64,000 bases of DNA from Candidatus Peregrinibacteria bacterium (GTDB lineage: Bacteria > Patescibacteriota > Gracilibacteria > Peribacterales > Peribacteraceae), in NCBI GenBank assembly GCA_030649955.1, contig JAUSFD010000003.1, positions 1 through 64,000 on the forward strand, in the 5' to 3' direction. The translations under genes were made by a program, and so were the position numbers. This document shows positions 27,065 to 32,946 of the stretch, in pieces. Within the stretch, counting starts at the first letter, position 1; every line of letters begins with the position of its first letter. The notes under the pieces are model-generated. The model was not told where the DNA came from and searched no databases. It saw nothing but the letters and a program-made list of their open reading frames with translations.

Positions 27065-27070
27065 TACAAT
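27065..27070 (+). promoter_or_regulatory. -10 box of the 27078 gene
   Basis: TACAAT overlaps a possible ATG at 27069. The in-frame GTG at 27078 lies 7 nt downstream, fitting the window's spacing. Confidence 0.5.
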
Positions 27071-27077
27071 GCGTCCC

Positions 27078-27491
27078 GTGCACACGAGAATCGGACTCTC
27101 TCTGGCATTCCTCTTGCAGCTCTCCTGTGCGTGGGCTCCGCTTGCACAGGCGAGCTACGACCCACCACCCCCTCCGTCTGCCGACGCGTTCATGACGCAT
27201 GCACCGACGTTCTGCGAGTGGGAGCACCCGCTCGCGAAGCGCATGAGCATGCTCCACACAGGACCGCGTCAGCCGTGCCCCGCGGACCGTTGCATCGAGG
27301 CGACCGATGACGGCCAGGAGGATGTTGCCGCTGCACAGCCCCAGAGCAGTGGCTCCGTACCGCTAGTCACTTCCCCATCTGCGTACTCTCAACATACGCA
27401 GACTCTCTCTTCACATGTCCATCAGGGTAGTGGCCTCTCACCCGGGGCTGCTCTCCAGAAACTCCTCTCTGCGGTTGTGCTGACGGTATGA
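27078..27491 (+). CDS. Secreted protein of the copper/redox island, function unknown
   Basis: From the GTG at 27078 the product is 137 residues. Its Sec signal peptide (MHTRIGLSLAFLLQLSCAWA) ends before QASYDPPPPP. The mature part has Cys residues in FCEWEHP and PCPADRCIE and several His and Met (MSMLHTG, HTQTLSSHVHQG), suggesting metal handling. The Met/His/Cys content and the next gene (HMA-DsbD-cupredoxin fusion) link it to copper. The ATG at 27069 is an alternative start. It ends in a strong hairpin. Confidence 0.75.
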   Translation: MHTRIGLSLAFLLQLSCAWAPLAQASYDPPPPPSADAFMTHAPTFCEWEHPLAKRMSMLHTGPRQPCPADRCIEATDDGQEDVAAAQPQSSGSVPLVTSPSAYSQHTQTLSSHVHQGSGLSPGAALQKLLSAVVLTV

Positions 27492-27520
27492 GAGCAACAC
27501 GCGTTCGCGTGTTCACTCTC
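27490..27520 (+). terminator. Hairpin between the 27078 and 27538 genes
   Basis: GAGAGCAACACGCG pairs with CGCGTGTTCACTCTC with two small internal bulges and a 2-nt loop, followed by pyrimidine-rich ATTCCTTTCTC. It begins inside the stop codon of the secreted-protein gene. It could also attenuate transcription into the fusion gene. Confidence 0.7.
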
Positions 27521-27537
27521 ATTCCTTTCTCAATACT

Positions 27538-28893
27538 ATGTCACACAATCCTTCGAAGTACCGCTGTACTTCTCTCCGCATCGCCGGCATGACCTGCGAG
27601 AGCTGCGAGCTCCTCCTCGAGCGCAAGCTGAAGGCTGTGCCCGGCGTCATTGATGCAGAACTCAATCACCGCACGGGGACTGCGAATATTACCGCATACG
27701 CAAAGAGGCTTCCTTCTGCGGAAGCGATCGAAGACGTGATCGCGCGCGCGGGCTACCGCCTCGATGAAGGCACACCCATGCACTCCTACGATGGAAAACA
27801 GAAATGGCTGGAGATTGGCGCAGCACTGCTGATTGTCCTCGGTGTGGGCAAGCTCCTGGGGGCGTTCGACATCGTGTCTCTCGCACCCTCGACATCCGGA
27901 GCGCTCACGCTCAGCGGGATCCTCCTCATCGGCCTGGTTGCCGGTGCCTCGAGTTGCCTCGCCGTGACGGGTGGGCTCTTGGTCGCGCTGGCTGCAAAAC
28001 ACAATGAGATGCATCAAGCTGAGACAGCGTGGCAGAAATTCCTGCCACTCCTACACTTCAATCTCGGTCGTCTCCTGTCGTACTTCCTCCTCGGTGGCCT
28101 CGTGGGCCTGCTCGGGCAATCGATTACGCTCGAAACGAAGATGACAGGGTACATGAGCATCGCCATCGCCTGCATCATGTTCTACCTCGCACTGAATATC
28201 CTCCAGATCCTCCCGAAGGGAAGTTTCCCTTTCCGTCCTCCAAAGAGGCTCTCCCTTTGGATTCACTCTCTCTCTGAGAGTGATCAGCCTGCTGCCCCCT
28301 TTGCGCTAGGCGCATTCACCTTCTTCCTCCCGTGTGGGTTCACGCAATCACTGCAGCTCGTGGCTCTCGCCTCAGGGAGTTTCCTCACCGGTGCCCTCAC
28401 GATGTTCATCTTCGCACTCGGTACTCTGCCTTCCCTCATCGGCCTGAGCACAATAGCTTCAACAGCACGCGGTACTACTTCGCGGCTATTCTTGCGGTTC
28501 TCGGGCGCACTGGTGCTGCTCCTGGCCCTCTTCAATCTCCGGAGCGGATTTGCCCTCGCCGGGCTCAACGTGGATTCCTTCTTCCAGAGTCCCACGTCTG
28601 TAGCGGGTTCTATCCCCATGATGAATGCCGGCGTGCAAGAGGTCGCCATGAAGGTCACTCGTTACGGGTACGAGCCCAGCAACCTCACGATTAAAGCAGG
28701 CATTCCCGTTCGCTGGACTGTCGACGGTGAGGGGGCAGAGGGTTGCACGAGCCAGCTCGTGATTCCTGATCTGAATATTTTGAAATCTCTCACCCGTGGC
28801 CAGAACATCATCGAATTCACCGCACCGCGCACCGGTCAGCTGGCCTTCAGCTGCTCGATGGGTATGGTCCGCGGAAGCTTCACTGTCCTCTAG
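27538..28893 (+). CDS. HMA-DsbD/SafE-like-cupredoxin fusion (copper/thiol membrane protein)
   Basis: A 451-residue three-part protein. Residues 8-75 form a heavy-metal-associated domain with GMTCESC (CxxC at 20-23). Residues about 90-345 are a six-helix DsbD/CcdA/SafE-like transporter domain with paired Cys and Pro motifs (GASSCLAVTGG and FFLPCGFTQS). Residues about 365-451 are a cupredoxin-like domain, beginning YGYEPSNLTIKAG, with Cys in GCTSQL and the C-terminal FSCSMGM. HMA, DsbD-like and cupredoxin parts together suggest copper delivery or export coupled to transmembrane thiol chemistry. It is followed after 28 bp by a DsbA-like gene. Confidence 0.88.
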   Translation: MSHNPSKYRCTSLRIAGMTCESCELLLERKLKAVPGVIDAELNHRTGTANITAYAKRLPSAEAIEDVIARAGYRLDEGTPMHSYDGKQKWLEIGAALLIVLGVGKLLGAFDIVSLAPSTSGALTLSGILLIGLVAGASSCLAVTGGLLVALAAKHNEMHQAETAWQKFLPLLHFNLGRLLSYFLLGGLVGLLGQSITLETKMTGYMSIAIACIMFYLALNILQILPKGSFPFRPPKRLSLWIHSLSESDQPAAPFALGAFTFFLPCGFTQSLQLVALASGSFLTGALTMFIFALGTLPSLIGLSTIASTARGTTSRLFLRFSGALVLLLALFNLRSGFALAGLNVDSFFQSPTSVAGSIPMMNAGVQEVAMKVTRYGYEPSNLTIKAGIPVRWTVDGEGAEGCTSQLVIPDLNILKSLTRGQNIIEFTAPRTGQLAFSCSMGMVRGSFTVL

Positions 28894-28921
28894 TTCCCCT
28901 ACCCCTTACCACTTACGCACT

Positions 28922-29734
28922 ATGGCAACCCTCCAATGGAAAGACTCACCACAGGAATCCCCTCACCTGAAGCAGCCCGACAGTAAGAGCTCGCCTGCCC
29001 TGCGCCGCGCCGAAGGGTCTAATCCACTTGTGGTGAGCGCAGCGAATCCATGGTTCGGCGTCTCGCTCGGTCTACTCGGCCTCATCGTCGGATTCGGCGT
29101 CGCGCGGATGAACACCTCGTTCACCCCCTCCGTTGTACAACCTCAGCAACCGCAAGCAGTCGCCCCCGAGGCACCGTCCGGCATCGTCCCGACGGCAGCT
29201 GCAGCTGATGTCATTCCTGTCGATACGAAGACCGAGCACATCCGCGGAAACCCCAAGGCGACAGTCGCCGTGATCGAGTACTCGGACTTCGAGTGCCCGT
29301 TCTGCCAGCGCGTCCACCCCACGTACAAGCAGCTCATGACCCTCTACGGTGACAAGATCATGTGGGTCTACCGCCATTACCCCCTGAGCTTCCACCAAAA
29401 TGCGCAGCCCGCAGCGGAAGCATCGGAATGCGTCGCAGAGTTGGGCGGCAATGAGAAGTTCTGGGAGTTCGCGGACATCGTCTTCGAGAGGAAGCGCTTC
29501 GACTTCGCGACGATCGCGAAGGAAATTGGTGTAAACGAGGCGAAGTTCACCGCGTGCGTTTCCTCGAAGAAGCACACCCAGAGCATCGCGGATGATATGA
29601 ACGGAGGTTCCGCCTCCGGTGTCGATGGAACACCTGGCAACATCGTCTACAACCTGGAGACGAAGGAGAGTCGCTTGGTCTCCGGCGCGCAGGCCACGAG
29701 CGCCTTCCAGGCAGCGATCGACGAGCTGCTCTAG
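28922..29734 (+). CDS. DsbA-like membrane-anchored thiol oxidoreductase
   Basis: The 270-residue product has a membrane anchor at about residues 46-62 and a Pro/Ala-rich linker. Its thioredoxin-fold DsbA/Thioredoxin_4 domain has the active site FECPFCQRVHP (CPFC at 125-128). GTPGNIVYNL, with its cis-Pro-like element, lies near the C-terminus. It resembles the BdbD/DsbA proteins that introduce disulfides outside the cytoplasm. It probably partners with the DsbD-like fusion upstream. Its stop is followed by a bidirectional terminator. Confidence 0.92.
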   Translation: MATLQWKDSPQESPHLKQPDSKSSPALRRAEGSNPLVVSAANPWFGVSLGLLGLIVGFGVARMNTSFTPSVVQPQQPQAVAPEAPSGIVPTAAAADVIPVDTKTEHIRGNPKATVAVIEYSDFECPFCQRVHPTYKQLMTLYGDKIMWVYRHYPLSFHQNAQPAAEASECVAELGGNEKFWEFADIVFERKRFDFATIAKEIGVNEAKFTACVSSKKHTQSIADDMNGGSASGVDGTPGNIVYNLETKESRLVSGAQATSAFQAAIDELL

Positions 29735-29755
29735 TCCCTCAGTATCGAAACCCGT

Positions 29756-29794
29756 ACGCAGAAGCGGATCCCGCAGGGGTCCGCTCTTCTGCGT
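29756..29794. terminator. Bidirectional hairpin terminator
   Basis: ACGCAGAAGCGGATCC and its partner ending CTTCTGCGT form a long stem with small bulges. It lies between the convergent DsbA-like gene and the GDCCVxC-like gene. Confidence 0.85.
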
Positions 29795-29801
29795 GGGAGT
29801 A

Positions 29802-30008
29802 TCAACGCTGTGCTGCGAGGAGCTCGTACTTGCGCAGCGCTACCGTGCACCGTCGATCGCCGTGGCTACAGAACACGCAGCACTGGCCCGGCTTCGGGAT
29901 GATGCGCGCATTGCAGTCCTCGCAGATCACGCAGTACTGGCAGCAGTCCCGGGGAATCGGGTGCAGTGCGGCACTCCTGCAATGGGGACAGGTGATGACG
30001 CCTTCCAT
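29802..30008 (-). CDS. Small Cys-rich GDCCVxC-type protein
   Basis: The 68-residue product from the ATG at 30008 (MEGVITCPHCRSAALHPIPR) has CPHC and CCQYCVICEDC. It also has the motif PGQCCVFCSHGDRRC, the signature of the GDCCVxC family with Gln in place of Asp. Family members are small metal-binding proteins often found in mercury, copper or arsenic islands, and some are selenoproteins; this one has ordinary Cys codons. Its position beside the copper/thiol genes fits. TACACT lies 9 nt upstream. Confidence 0.82.
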   Translation of the reverse strand: MEGVITCPHCRSAALHPIPRDCCQYCVICEDCNARIIPKPGQCCVFCSHGDRRCTVALRKYELLAAQR

Positions 30009-30017
30009 AGAAGGGTC

Positions 30018-30023
30018 AGTGTA
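30018..30023 (-). promoter_or_regulatory. -10 box of the GDCCVxC-like gene
   Basis: TACACT on the minus strand, 9 nt before the ATG at 30008. Confidence 0.55.
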
Positions 30024-30087
30024 CACTCTCCTTTCCATCGGGGAAGGTCATCCATCCTATTCTCCATTGCAGAGCGGGTATTTTTCT

Positions 30088-30153
30088 GGGGAGCAGGTCT
30101 TCAGACCTGCGGATGTCCTGCACTGCAATCGCGGGTCGGAAGACCCGCTCCTC
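30088..30153. repeat. REP-like double palindrome
   Basis: GAGCAGGTCTTCAGACCTGC and GCGGGTCGGAAGACCCGC are each palindromic, and the outer parts (GGAGC.GGTCTTC / GAAGACC.GCTCC) also pair with each other. The layout resembles a REP/BIME unit. Confidence 0.7.
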
Positions 30154-30173
30154 AAGAGGAAGTATCACGCAAT

Positions 30174-30776
30174 CTACAGATCTCCTTCCGGAACCACGCA
30201 CGGCACCTCCGGATCGGCGATGCAGTTCTCTGCAGGAGGATCGCCGCGCTCCGGACAGGTGCGGGAGTAGAGGCAAGAGTCGTCCGTCAGGAGATGGAGT
30301 TGGGACGTCACTTCATCATCCTGCGTCGCATTGGTGATGAGCAGATGATCGTCATCATTGAAGACGTATCGACTGCCGTCGAGATTCACCGTTCCATTGA
30401 CGAACAAGCGAACTTCGTATGTCTCCTTGCCAACGGGTGAGTCCGCAAAACTCAGCTGACTCCCGGAGTACGCGGAGGAGAATGGCAACGAACCGAAGAA
30501 ATCGCCGAGCGTCAGCCCTGGCTTGTGCCGATGGATCACGTGACCCACTCCATCATGGAGGTGGAAGTACGGGTGCTTGTGCTGCTCATTCTCGTGCGGG
30601 CCTCCGGGCTCGTCCTTGGAACTCCCTGACATGAAGAGTTCACCACTAAAATCGAGCTTCTGCCCATCGACCCACACCGCGAAGTCCGCATGTGTGTGGT
30701 TGGGATCCGGGTTCACGGCTGGTTCACCACACGCTGCGAGGAGAAGAGGGAGGATGACGAGGAGAGCGCGTTTCAT
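30174..30776 (-). CDS. His-rich lipoprotein of the copper island
   Basis: From the ATG at 30776 (MKRALLVILPLLLAACGEPA) the product is 200 residues with a lipobox LAAC (Cys16). The start of the mature region has NHTHADFAVWVDGQKLDFS. A central His cluster reads HENEQHKHPYFHLHDG, then HVIHRHKP. Many His favour metal binding. It sits directly downstream of the CuA-type lipoprotein on the same strand (11 bp), so the two likely function together on the outer face of the membrane. The C-terminus has four Cys (SCLYSRTC, NCIADPEVPC). I do not recognise a named enzyme. Confidence 0.8.
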   Translation of the reverse strand: MKRALLVILPLLLAACGEPAVNPDPNHTHADFAVWVDGQKLDFSGELFMSGSSKDEPGGPHENEQHKHPYFHLHDGVGHVIHRHKPGLTLGDFFGSLPFSSAYSGSQLSFADSPVGKETYEVRLFVNGTVNLDGSRYVFNDDDHLLITNATQDDEVTSQLHLLTDDSCLYSRTCPERGDPPAENCIADPEVPCVVPEGDL

Positions 30777-30787
30777 GGGAGAGGGGG

Positions 30788-31222
30788 TTACTCGACGATG
30801 ACCGTGGCCTTCATGTCCTTGTGACCGGAGCCGCAAGGGATGGAACAGAACGCTTCAAATTCCCCTGCAACAGATGTATCGAGAGTGATCGTCTTCGTCT
30901 CGCCAGGCTGCATCGCGAGATTGATGCCGAGTCCAGGGACTGCGAATCCGTGGATCCCCTCCCCTCCCACAACCTCGAGTGTCACCTTCTCGCCCTTCTT
31001 CACGCGGATGATGTTCGGGGTGAACTTCCAGTTCTCCGTCGTCACACGGATCGTGCGTGCTTCCCCCTCCATTGCCTCAGTACTCGAAGAGGATTCCTCT
31101 TCCGTCCCAGCAACGGTCGATGAAGAATCGGAGCCTGTGTCCGCATCGCCCGTCCGCGTGGGCTCGCAAGCAACGAGTACGAGCGTGAGGGAAATTCCGA
31201 GAAGAGGGAGGAGACGTTTCAT
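30788..31222 (-). CDS. Cupredoxin lipoprotein with a CuA-type site (COX2-like)
   Basis: The 144-residue product has a lipobox LVAC (Cys19), a Ser/Glu/Thr-rich linker and one cupredoxin domain from about residue 55. Ligands match a CuA centre: His91 (GIHGF), then CSIPCGSGHKDM with Cys126, Cys130, His134 and Met137, spaced C-x3-C-x3-H-x2-M. This is the cytochrome-oxidase subunit II arrangement, but no oxidase subunit I, transmembrane hairpin or haem genes are present here. It may be an electron or copper carrier. It forms a two-gene unit with the His-rich lipoprotein and is divergent from the DoxX-like gene. Confidence 0.88.
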   Translation of the reverse strand: MKRLLPLLGISLTLVLVACEPTRTGDADTGSDSSSTVAGTEEESSSSTEAMEGEARTIRVTTENWKFTPNIIRVKKGEKVTLEVVGGEGIHGFAVPGLGINLAMQPGETKTITLDTSVAGEFEAFCSIPCGSGHKDMKATVIVE

Positions 31223-31240
31223 ACGGAAAGGGGTACCGAA

Positions 31241-31246
31241 TACAGA
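31241..31246 (+). promoter_or_regulatory. -10-like box of the DoxX-like gene
   Basis: TACAGA followed by GCGTTT and the ATG at 31253, a 6-nt gap. Confidence 0.4.
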
Positions 31247-31252
31247 GCGTTT

Positions 31253-31621
31253 ATGCTAGCCTTTGCGGCAATGGATCGCAACCGTCTCGCCGCCCACATC
31301 CTCACCGCGGCACTCGTCATCCTCTACGCCTCCTTCGGCATCGATAAGTTCGTGGCGCCCATCAACTGGGTCCAGTGGATCCCGCCCTGGCTCGACGGGA
31401 GTTTCGGGATGGACGCGAATGCATGGCTCAAAGTAATCGGTGTTGGGGAGATCGTCCTCGCAACTCTCCTCTTGATCCCGAACCGCCGCGTCCGCCAAGT
31501 AGGCGCCATCGGCATCGCGCTCTCCCTCGTGGGGATCCTCACGCAAGTTGGCTGGAACGACATGGGAGCGCGGGACTTCGCGATACTCCTCTCGAGTTTG
31601 GCGCTGTTTGTACTGCTCTGA
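31253..31621 (+). CDS. DoxX-like four-helix membrane protein
   Basis: The 122-residue product has four membrane helices, with a conserved-looking helix-1 end LVILYASFGIDKFVAPINW and an amphipathic loop (LDGSFGMDANAWLK) before GEIVLATLLLIPNRRVRQVG. This matches the DoxX/DUF417-like family, often linked to thiol or redox metabolism. It is divergent from the CuA lipoprotein gene. An internal ATG at 31271 is an alternative start. Confidence 0.75.
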   Translation: MLAFAAMDRNRLAAHILTAALVILYASFGIDKFVAPINWVQWIPPWLDGSFGMDANAWLKVIGVGEIVLATLLLIPNRRVRQVGAIGIALSLVGILTQVGWNDMGARDFAILLSSLALFVLL

Positions 31622-31687
31622 GAGATGTAAGAATCGCATGCCACATTTTTTCGCAAGGATTCTGATTATTTGCATGGAGAGCACACC

Positions 31688-31711
31688 TGTGGTACACTGG
31701 TGTTACACCTT
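31688..31711 (+). promoter_or_regulatory. Direct-repeat promoter/operator of TA module 1
   Basis: TGTGGTACACT and TGGTGTTACACC place TGnTACAC twice at an 11-bp period, about 20-30 bp before the antitoxin ATG. The same arrangement precedes TA module 2. It could be an extended -10 box and an autoregulatory operator. Confidence 0.5.
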
Positions 31712-31726
31712 TCTCCTTCCGTTCCC

Positions 31727-31969
31727 ATGCCCACTTCCAAGCAGCGCCTCAATCTCACACTGCCAAAGAAGTTGGCTGTTTTTCTTAAAAAGATTTCACT
31801 CCGCGACGAAGTGTCGCAGTCGGCAAAGGCGCTTGAACTCATTGAGCGCGGGCTGGAGATGGAGGAAGGAGAATTCAAGCCGTCGTTTGTTGCTGAGGTG
31901 AAGAGGCGTTTGAAGGAGGATAGGTTGGTGCCAGCTGAGGAAGTTTTCAAACGTCTATGGTCAGAATGA
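31727..31969 (+). CDS. Antitoxin of TA module 1
   Basis: From the ATG at 31727 (MPTSKQRLNLTLPKKLAVFL) the product is 80 residues. The N-terminal KQRLNLTLPKKLAVFLKKIS looks like a ribbon-helix-helix or RelB-like DNA-binding strand plus helix, and the C-terminal half is acidic/helical and would wrap the toxin. It overlaps the toxin gene. It is clearly paralogous to the antitoxin at 32444 (MPTSKKRINITLKKDIALFL). Confidence 0.85.
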   Translation: MPTSKQRLNLTLPKKLAVFLKKISLRDEVSQSAKALELIERGLEMEEGEFKPSFVAEVKRRLKEDRLVPAEEVFKRLWSE

Positions 31970-32235
31970 AGCTGCGTTCATCTGTGGAACGAGACCTGGA
32001 GAGGTTGGATTACATTATCCGCCGCCAGCTCATTCTAGGGTGTAAGGAGCTATGCGATGATTGGACAATTGGGAAAATTCTGTCGGGCCCATTGAAAGGC
32101 TTGCGAGCGCACCGAGTGGGGACCTACAGAATACTGTATCGTGTCCGAGCGAGCAGTGAAGTCGACATTGTTACCATCGGTCATCGAAGGGAAATCTACG
32201 AGCGAGTGGGGAAGCAGAAACGGTCGAGGAAGTAG
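31957..32235 (+). CDS. RelE/ParE-family toxin of TA module 1
   Basis: The 92-residue basic product (MVRMKLRSSVERDLERLDYI) has the RelE/ParE fold pattern. LSGPLKGLRAHRVGTYRILY is the core strand set with the usual GxYRIxY, and VTIGHRREIYERV is the C-terminal strand. RelE members cut mRNA on ribosomes; ParE members inhibit gyrase. Which applies is open. The ATG at 31957 or 31966 (overlapping the antitoxin stop) could be used. Confidence 0.87.
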   Translation: MVRMKLRSSVERDLERLDYIIRRQLILGCKELCDDWTIGKILSGPLKGLRAHRVGTYRILYRVRASSEVDIVTIGHRREIYERVGKQKRSRK

Positions 32236-32387: not shown

Positions 32388-32412
32388 CATGTGATACACT
32401 TTTGATACACTT
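32388..32412 (+). promoter_or_regulatory. Direct-repeat promoter/operator of TA module 2
   Basis: TGTGATACACT and TTTGATACACT repeat the word TGATACACT at 11-bp period, matching the site before TA module 1. Confidence 0.5.
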
Positions 32413-32443
32413 AATGCGTTTCCTCTCCTTCACTTCCTCAGTC

Positions 32444-32674
32444 ATGCCCACCTCGAAAAAGCGCATCAACATCACGCTGAAGAAAGATATTGCCCTCTTC
32501 CTGCACAAGATTGCCCTCCGGGACGACGTGCCACAGGCAACGAAAGCGGCAGAGCTCTTGGAGTTCGCGCTCGAACTCCTCGAGGATGACTACTTCAGCA
32601 AGATAGCGGAGAAGAGAGACAGAGCAAGTGCAAAATTTCTCTCCCATGATGCCTTCTGGTCGAAGGTGCTATGA
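32444..32674 (+). CDS. Antitoxin of TA module 2
   Basis: From the ATG at 32444 the product is 76 residues (MPTSKKRINITLKKDIALFL, then HKIALRDDVPQATKAAELLE). The N-terminal DNA-binding strand-helix and acidic C-terminus mirror the module 1 antitoxin. Its TGA stop overlaps the ATG of the toxin (ATGA at 32671). The frame upstream to 32402 is not needed. Confidence 0.87.
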   Translation: MPTSKKRINITLKKDIALFLHKIALRDDVPQATKAAELLEFALELLEDDYFSKIAEKRDRASAKFLSHDAFWSKVL

Positions 32675-32946
32675 CCTACACCATCCGCTACTCTTCCCTC
32701 CTGAATCCAAAAGCAGTGTCGGGGTTCCCCAAGACAGATCTCCGGAAAGTCAAACGGAGCATCGAGCAGAAGTTAACAGGCGAACCCGATCTCTTTGGAA
32801 AACCGCTGCGCCGTTCTCTGCGTGGGTACTGGAGTTTGAGAGTAGGAAACTACCGCGTGATCTACCGAATACGAGAATCCGAAGTACTGATCTTCCTCAT
32901 TGAACATCGATCGGTCGTGTACGAAACGGCCAAGAAGTTCCTTTGA
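32671..32946 (+). CDS. RelE-family toxin of TA module 2
   Basis: The 91-residue product MTYTIRYSSLLNPKAVSGFP has the typical RelE core LRRSLRGYWSLRVGNYRVIY with the final strand VLIFLIEHRSVVYETAKKF. Conserved Arg residues fit an mRNA interferase. It is a diverged paralogue of the toxin at 31957, giving two TA pairs within 1.3 kb. Coupled by ATGA overlap to its antitoxin. Confidence 0.88.
   Translation: MTYTIRYSSLLNPKAVSGFPKTDLRKVKRSIEQKLTGEPDLFGKPLRRSLRGYWSLRVGNYRVIYRIRESEVLIFLIEHRSVVYETAKKFL

Follow-up and report, generated by a model that had tools for sequence, protein, structure and literature searches.

An envelope copper/thiol island of Candidatus Peribacteraceae as a probable arm of a CopA-type copper-homeostasis module

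The seven-gene island described here is the conserved envelope part of a CopA-type copper-homeostasis module and not a free-standing system. It lies in a window of 64,000 nucleotides, the whole stretch of DNA that was analysed, taken from a contig of 64,072 bp (C27) of a Ca. Peribacteraceae genome (Patescibacteria; 1.67 Mb, 98.6% complete; G000 in our numbering). We consider it rather probable that the island serves as the envelope arm of such a module with a CutF-like leader, in a fermentative Ca. Peribacteraceae lineage. This view builds on direct observations of gene content, conservation, metal and thiol residues, linkage to CopA, CopZ and CsoR, absence of oxidases and a hairpin. The initial annotation had listed a secreted Cys/Met/His protein, an HMA-DsbD-cupredoxin fusion, a DsbA-like protein, a GDCCVxC-type protein, a His-rich lipoprotein, a CuA-type lipoprotein and a DoxX-like protein. 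All seven genes are real and placed as described, the start of the island being corrected to 27069, on the basis of ORFs and of Pfam/NCBIfam domain support (Table 1), and the description of their products holds, "DoxX-like" for the last one being tentative. It had further proposed a small extracytoplasmic system for copper delivery and thiol electron transfer without an oxidase. The neighbourhood is conserved in related genomes and a search for an oxidase elsewhere in the genome found none, neither of which refutes this copper/thiol reading, and the reading holds. Its idea of a complete small system does not: CsoR and CopA are absent from the island itself, and the other arm of the CsoR/CopZ/CopA module is carried by contig C20. 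The island is known copper homeostasis in a variant form and no new kind of system. The initial annotation had overlooked that g1, with the hairpin behind it, probably has a regulatory function.

Table 1. Features of the island, in window coordinates.
Feature	Description	Positions	Strand	Basis
Island	seven open genes	27069-31621		ORF analysis
g1	small secreted Cys/Met/His protein, 140 aa	27069-27491	+	ORF; positional equivalents in relatives
Hairpin	RNA hairpin with g1 stop codon (27489-27491), ends 15 nt before g2 start	27488-27522	+	MFE
g2	HMA - DsbD_2 (membrane) - CupA-type cupredoxin fusion, 451 aa	27538-28893	+	Pfam
g3	membrane-anchored DsbA-like thiol oxidoreductase (CPFC, GTPG), 270 aa	28922-29734	+	Pfam; motifs
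g4	GDCCVxC-domain protein, 78 aa	29802-30038	-	NF041374 (8.8e-17)
g5	lipoprotein, HxHxD / HLHxxxGxVxHxH + four C-terminal Cys, 200 aa	30174-30776	-	alignment
g6	CuA-type lipoprotein, 144 aa	30788-31222	-	Pfam; PDB CuA domains (about 6e-18)
g7	four-TM protein, divergent from g6, 122 aa	31253-31621	+	DoxX_2, sub-cut-off

Pfam matches delimited in g2 an HMA domain (3e-10), a DsbD_2 domain (2.1e-35) and a Cupredoxin_1 domain (8.5e-9); HMA and DsbD_2 thus stand in one chain, as they do in the HMA-DsbD_2 proteins linked to CopA. The three-domain fusion had been called unusual and turned out to be common in relatives. The gene found matches in 51 of 79 related genomes, a count in which some matches correspond to the HMA part alone. 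Across the genome collection, confirmed fusion stretches number at least 568 and come from many Patescibacteria, some archaea and a few Proteobacteria. The named relatives belong to Ca. Peribacteria/Peribacteraceae and other Peregrinibacteria, and the closest among the matches listed is located on contig C24 of genome G023. TGA occurs many times in frame in the fusion genes of three genomes (G056, G076 and G078), which fits relatives that translate this codon as an amino acid.

We observed a copper P-type ATPase of the CopA kind within 10 kb, in the fetched flanks, at 68 of the 80 named fusion loci, and a CopZ-like HMA protein and CsoR were often found beside the pair. The g2 copy of the window is not adjacent to CopA; the linkage is displayed by its relatives and by a paralogous fusion of the same genome, 37% identical to g2, located on contig C20 in the order CsoR - fusion - CopZ - CopA. 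This operon is flanked by genes for a FAD/NAD oxidoreductase (L033:9819-10580) and a Met-rich DUF305 protein (L033:16996-17562).

Alignment of g2 with its relatives revealed three invariant groups of residues (26/26 each): the HMA pair C20/C23, the DsbD_2 membrane cysteines C140/C266 and the cupredoxin positions C403/C439/M441/M443. The cupredoxin domain aligned with pneumococcal CupA (1.6e-11) over all four Cu(I) ligands, and in fold it came closest to two S. pneumoniae structures, CupA and the metal-binding domain of CopA. It lacks the His ligand of a type 1 site. Judging from these residues, the domain is of the CupA type, with thiol and thioether Cu(I) ligands and not those of a blue electron carrier. 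Seven transmembrane helices, predicted from hydropathy and the structural model, would place the HMA domain inside and the cupredoxin outside. DsbD_2 cores are membrane thiol carriers, and as one of them is attached here to the CupA-type site, we infer that the membrane part supplies electrons to a Cu(II)-reducing chaperone site. Overall, g2 probably reduces copper or hands it on; its DsbD_2 part could also serve thiol chemistry only, or copper only.

The next gene, g3, matches Thioredoxin_4 (2e-21), and a DsbA-like gene was found 3′ of the fusion in about a dozen relatives. At two loci (L065 and L082), proteins of the g3 and g6 types are fused into one chain of 376 aa, a link between thiol chemistry and the CuA protein. 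VKOR, considered as reoxidant of g3, gave no match in the genome. A plainer reading is copper detoxification, in which g2 and the lipoproteins merely sequester Cu(I) exported by CopA and DsbD_2 transfers no electrons. Such a role would fit the CupA-type Cu(I) site of g2 and the linkage to CopA/CopZ/CsoR, and in relatives to a CueO-like oxidase. However, it leaves aside that C140 and C266 are both invariant, that g3 follows g2 in many loci and that fusions of g3 with g6 exist, and we regard it as unlikely.

The GDCCVxC profile scored 61.1 bits with g4, for a curated cut-off of 40 bits. This gene was present in 6 of 59 genomes and its link to the copper system is weak. Between g4 and g5, at 30090-30150, we noticed two neighbouring palindromes, GCAGGTCTTCAGACCTGC and GCGGGTCGGAAGACCCGC, resembling a REP-like element, with no other copy within the window. 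For g5, no Pfam family scored above cut-off and the predicted fold (pLDDT 76) had no PDB match at E <= 0.001; the His and Asp residues of HxHxD and HLH...VxHxH and the four C-terminal cysteines are invariant in 26 sequences. Its neighbour g6 matched Cupredoxin_1 (1.4e-11), COX2 (1e-6) and also CoxB/CuA domains, and carries the full set of CuA ligands (5/5: H91, C126, C130, H134 and M137). A second CuA-type paralogue of g6 resides away from the island (G000:C18:221793-222302; L165). In 12 genomes, from 11 genera, g5 and g6 lie side by side in the same orientation, and the g5-g6-g7 block is kept in about 11 genera, g7 being usually divergent. One locus, L082, repeats the order fusion, DsbA(-CuA), g5, g6, g7. 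The tentative naming of g7 follows from its DoxX_2 score of 23.2 bits, below the curated cut-off of 26.3 bits. Beside the island, small overlapping genes form two pairs in tandem (31670-32235 and 32402-32946), in which the second member is RelE/ParE-like by eye; these are probable toxin-antitoxin modules.

At the other end of the island, g1 is shorter than 150 aa and has a hydrophobic N-terminus by simple hydropathy, as CutF-like proteins with a Sec signal do; no Pfam family, DUF2946 included, matched it above cut-off. Its cysteine motif is CPADRC (Cx4C), where CutF-like leaders have CxxxC or CXXC and most relatives show a CxGHC-like motif, and it also lacks the C-terminal Pro-Pro of CutF-like proteins. 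Because CxGHC and Pro-Pro are both present in most relatives, the window copy may be degenerate, and for lack of them we do not file it as a proven member of the leader family. In the relatives, small secreted Cys/Met/His-rich proteins are encoded directly 5′ of the fusion. Their middles could not be aligned and their ends could, the extreme C-terminus being conserved in these otherwise fast-changing proteins; most terminate with a Pro-Pro stretch followed by T-I/V-V-L-R-x. Counted without a filter on the C-terminus, 49 of 88 distinct loci have, directly 5′ of the fusion, a small ORF whose product is secreted and contains two or more cysteines. Pro-Pro occurred within the last 28 aa of 28/49 leaders and of 5.8% of other ORFs (p 3e-22), and a hydrophobic VL-type end in 23/49 and 2.0% respectively (p 4e-26), these p-values being descriptive only since the motifs were set after inspection and the loci are related and not independent. 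A second class of leaders ends with GI(I/L)xPKIY and is also accompanied by hairpins directly upstream of the fusion (L080, L085, L086, L106, L126, L128 and others).

The intergenic stem-loop of the window has a minimum free energy of -18.3 kcal/mol (z -5.6), and in relatives a hairpin likewise starts at or beside the leader stop codon, between leader and fusion. Over 22 loci, a set selected by the C-terminal pattern, the mean z was -2.65, with 16/22 below -1.5, and the class A set of the leader count gave -2.85; controls gave +0.54 downstream of the fusion and -0.05 in random stretches. With no Shine-Dalgarno sequence visible before g2, the hairpin would affect initiation or attenuation otherwise than in cutO. 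By analogy, g1 looks like a candidate leader of the CutF/CruR type, a diverged member of an upstream-ORF family, and small exported peptides of this kind probably sense copper during their synthesis. Alternatively, there would be no copper switch: g1 would simply bind copper after its secretion, and the hairpin would stabilise the mRNA or act as a weak terminator. The missing Pro-Pro of the window g1 and a T/C-rich stretch 3′ of the hairpin would agree with this. Against it, the g1 stop codon sits within the hairpin, the extreme C-terminus is conserved while the rest of these proteins changes fast, and the hairpin is missing from the terminator scan list, for which we rejected it as an intrinsic terminator; we judge the alternative somewhat unlikely and retain the candidate leader.

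The statement that no oxidase genes are present was confirmed beyond the island, with 0 COX1 matches in the whole genome, and extended to 0/79 genomes for both COX1 and cytochrome bd (this genome and 78 relatives). The CoxB/CuA matches of g6 and its complete ligand set could otherwise suggest a heme-copper oxidase assembly system, composed of a CuA subunit II and maturation proteins. Lacking a COX1 partner and cytochrome bd, this reading is refuted at the completeness of these genomes and its probability is negligible.

A further copper enzyme was found on contig C20. The CopA of this genome (1157 aa, L033:12580-16053) runs at its C-terminus into a two-domain copper nitrite reductase, whose best match is AniA 1KBV (8.8e-93). 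This NirK part is intact, with all type 1 and type 2 copper ligands, at the positions that we take to be theirs from AniA, and the catalytic Asp and His. Behind the CopA core, at residues of about 770-796, lies one more hydrophobic stretch, which would put NirK outside. The CopA-NirK fusion also occurs in three other Peribacteraceae genomes (G008, G023 and G032), and in two of them (G023 and G032) the g5 domain stands behind NirK in the same chain. NirK matches were obtained in 7 of 79 relatives and in 9 of 380 genomes of the phylum; among these nine it is a separate gene except in G000 and G023. The fusion was not found in the literature searched, and absence there is no proof. Four 'MCO' genes beside CopA (L036, L041, L046 and L038), considered as NirK, are standalone three-domain CueO-like oxidases.

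The NirK part allows the island to be read as an electron conduit, in which g2, g3 and the CuA lipoprotein g6 export electrons to the CopA-fused NirK with nitrite as sink. In its favour are the complete set of copper ligands and catalytic residues in an AniA-like enzyme fused to CopA, the g5 domain behind NirK in two relatives, and a published CPR nirK receiving electrons 'by an unknown means' (PMC5581439). But most family genomes carry g2, g5 and g6, and NirK-CopA was detected in only 4 of 48. Also, the cupredoxin of g2 offers no His to a type 1 site, and an HCO-type NO reductase is lacking, the COX1 family being absent from the 79 genomes. We hold this route very unlikely. NirK as a general partner of g5 and g6 is likewise weakened, being found in few of the genomes that carry them.

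Returning to the envelope arm of a CopA-type module, we infer electron-flow direction, copper transfer, pausing and topology as follows. Copper would be bound by the cytosolic HMA domain of g2, and electrons, possibly together with Cu(I), would cross by C140/C266 to the outside CupA-type site, which would bind Cu(I) and reduce Cu(II). Thiol exchange between g3 and g2 would allow g3 to hold copper-site cysteines, for example those of g6, ready for metal loading, and g6 and the His-rich g5 would accept copper. On the regulatory side, copper on the nascent exported g1 might alter ribosome pausing at its C-terminus, and the altered pausing might open the hairpin before g2. A bolder version, which we regard as quite unlikely, is that CutF-like nascent sensors with an arrest-type C-terminus of their own control a DsbD_2-powered reductase/chaperone of the CupA type, serving the NirK-fused pump in a few species, where a fermentative cell would thereby gain an electron sink outside its cytoplasm.

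Three points are of specialist interest: the possibility that the DsbD_2-CupA fusion is a self-powered copper reductase, the occurrence of CutF-like leaders in Patescibacteria, and the joining of CopA to NirK. CupA reduces Cu(II) via its two cysteines, and the electron source that resets them is 'currently unknown' (PMC5646241). With a transmembrane thiol carrier covalently joined to a CupA-type site, g2 offers a concrete and testable answer to where these electrons come from. On the leader reading, copper sensing by nascent chains would also occur in a large branch of bacteria, most of it uncultured. Finally, in a lineage that has neither heme-copper nor bd oxidases, the attachment of a copper nitrite reductase to a copper pump bears on whether some such cells possess an electron sink besides fermentation.

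Thiol relays of the ScsBC or DsbD-DsbA type are linked to copper tolerance. The island shares with them a DsbD-like membrane protein and a DsbA-like partner in a copper setting, but a DsbD_2 core replaces the full DsbD and copper domains are fused onto this core. The NirK part resembles the class II copper nitrite reductases AniA/NirK (PDB 1KBV; 9e-93, all ligands) and differs from them in forming the C-terminal part of a P1B ATPase chain, encoded on a contig other than that of the window. Similarly to Streptococcus pneumoniae CupA (PDB 4F2E, 2MRY), g2 combines a cupredoxin fold with two Cys and two Met aligned as Cu(I) ligands; unlike CupA, a small membrane-anchored chaperone for CopA, its site is fused to HMA and DsbD_2 and predicted outside the membrane. 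In Rhodobacter capsulatus, export of the nascent CutF chain is slowed when copper binds to it, and the stem-loop in front of cutO can then open (PMC9973294); the text of that survey makes no mention of Patescibacteria. Like CutF and Bordetella CruR (PMC9426467), the leaders are small exported Cys proteins with a C-terminal Pro-Pro in most members, and the stem-loop before a copper gene is shared with CutF only, not with CruR. In contrast to both, they have no detectable sequence similarity to them, a C-terminal motif of their own (T-I/V-V-L-R-x), the fusion as downstream gene and a stem beginning at the stop codon. HMA-DsbD_2 proteins belong to a published CsoR regulon (PMC4938975), and in Chloroflexi (Table A2 of PMC8756737) CopZ, DsbD_2-cupredoxin, P-type ATPase, HMA and CsoR are found side by side. 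The present module shares partner genes and the HMA/DsbD_2 architecture with CsoR-CopZ-CopA operons carrying such COG2836 proteins, whereas here leader and fusion are unlinked from CopA and stand among CuA, His-rich and DoxX-like proteins.
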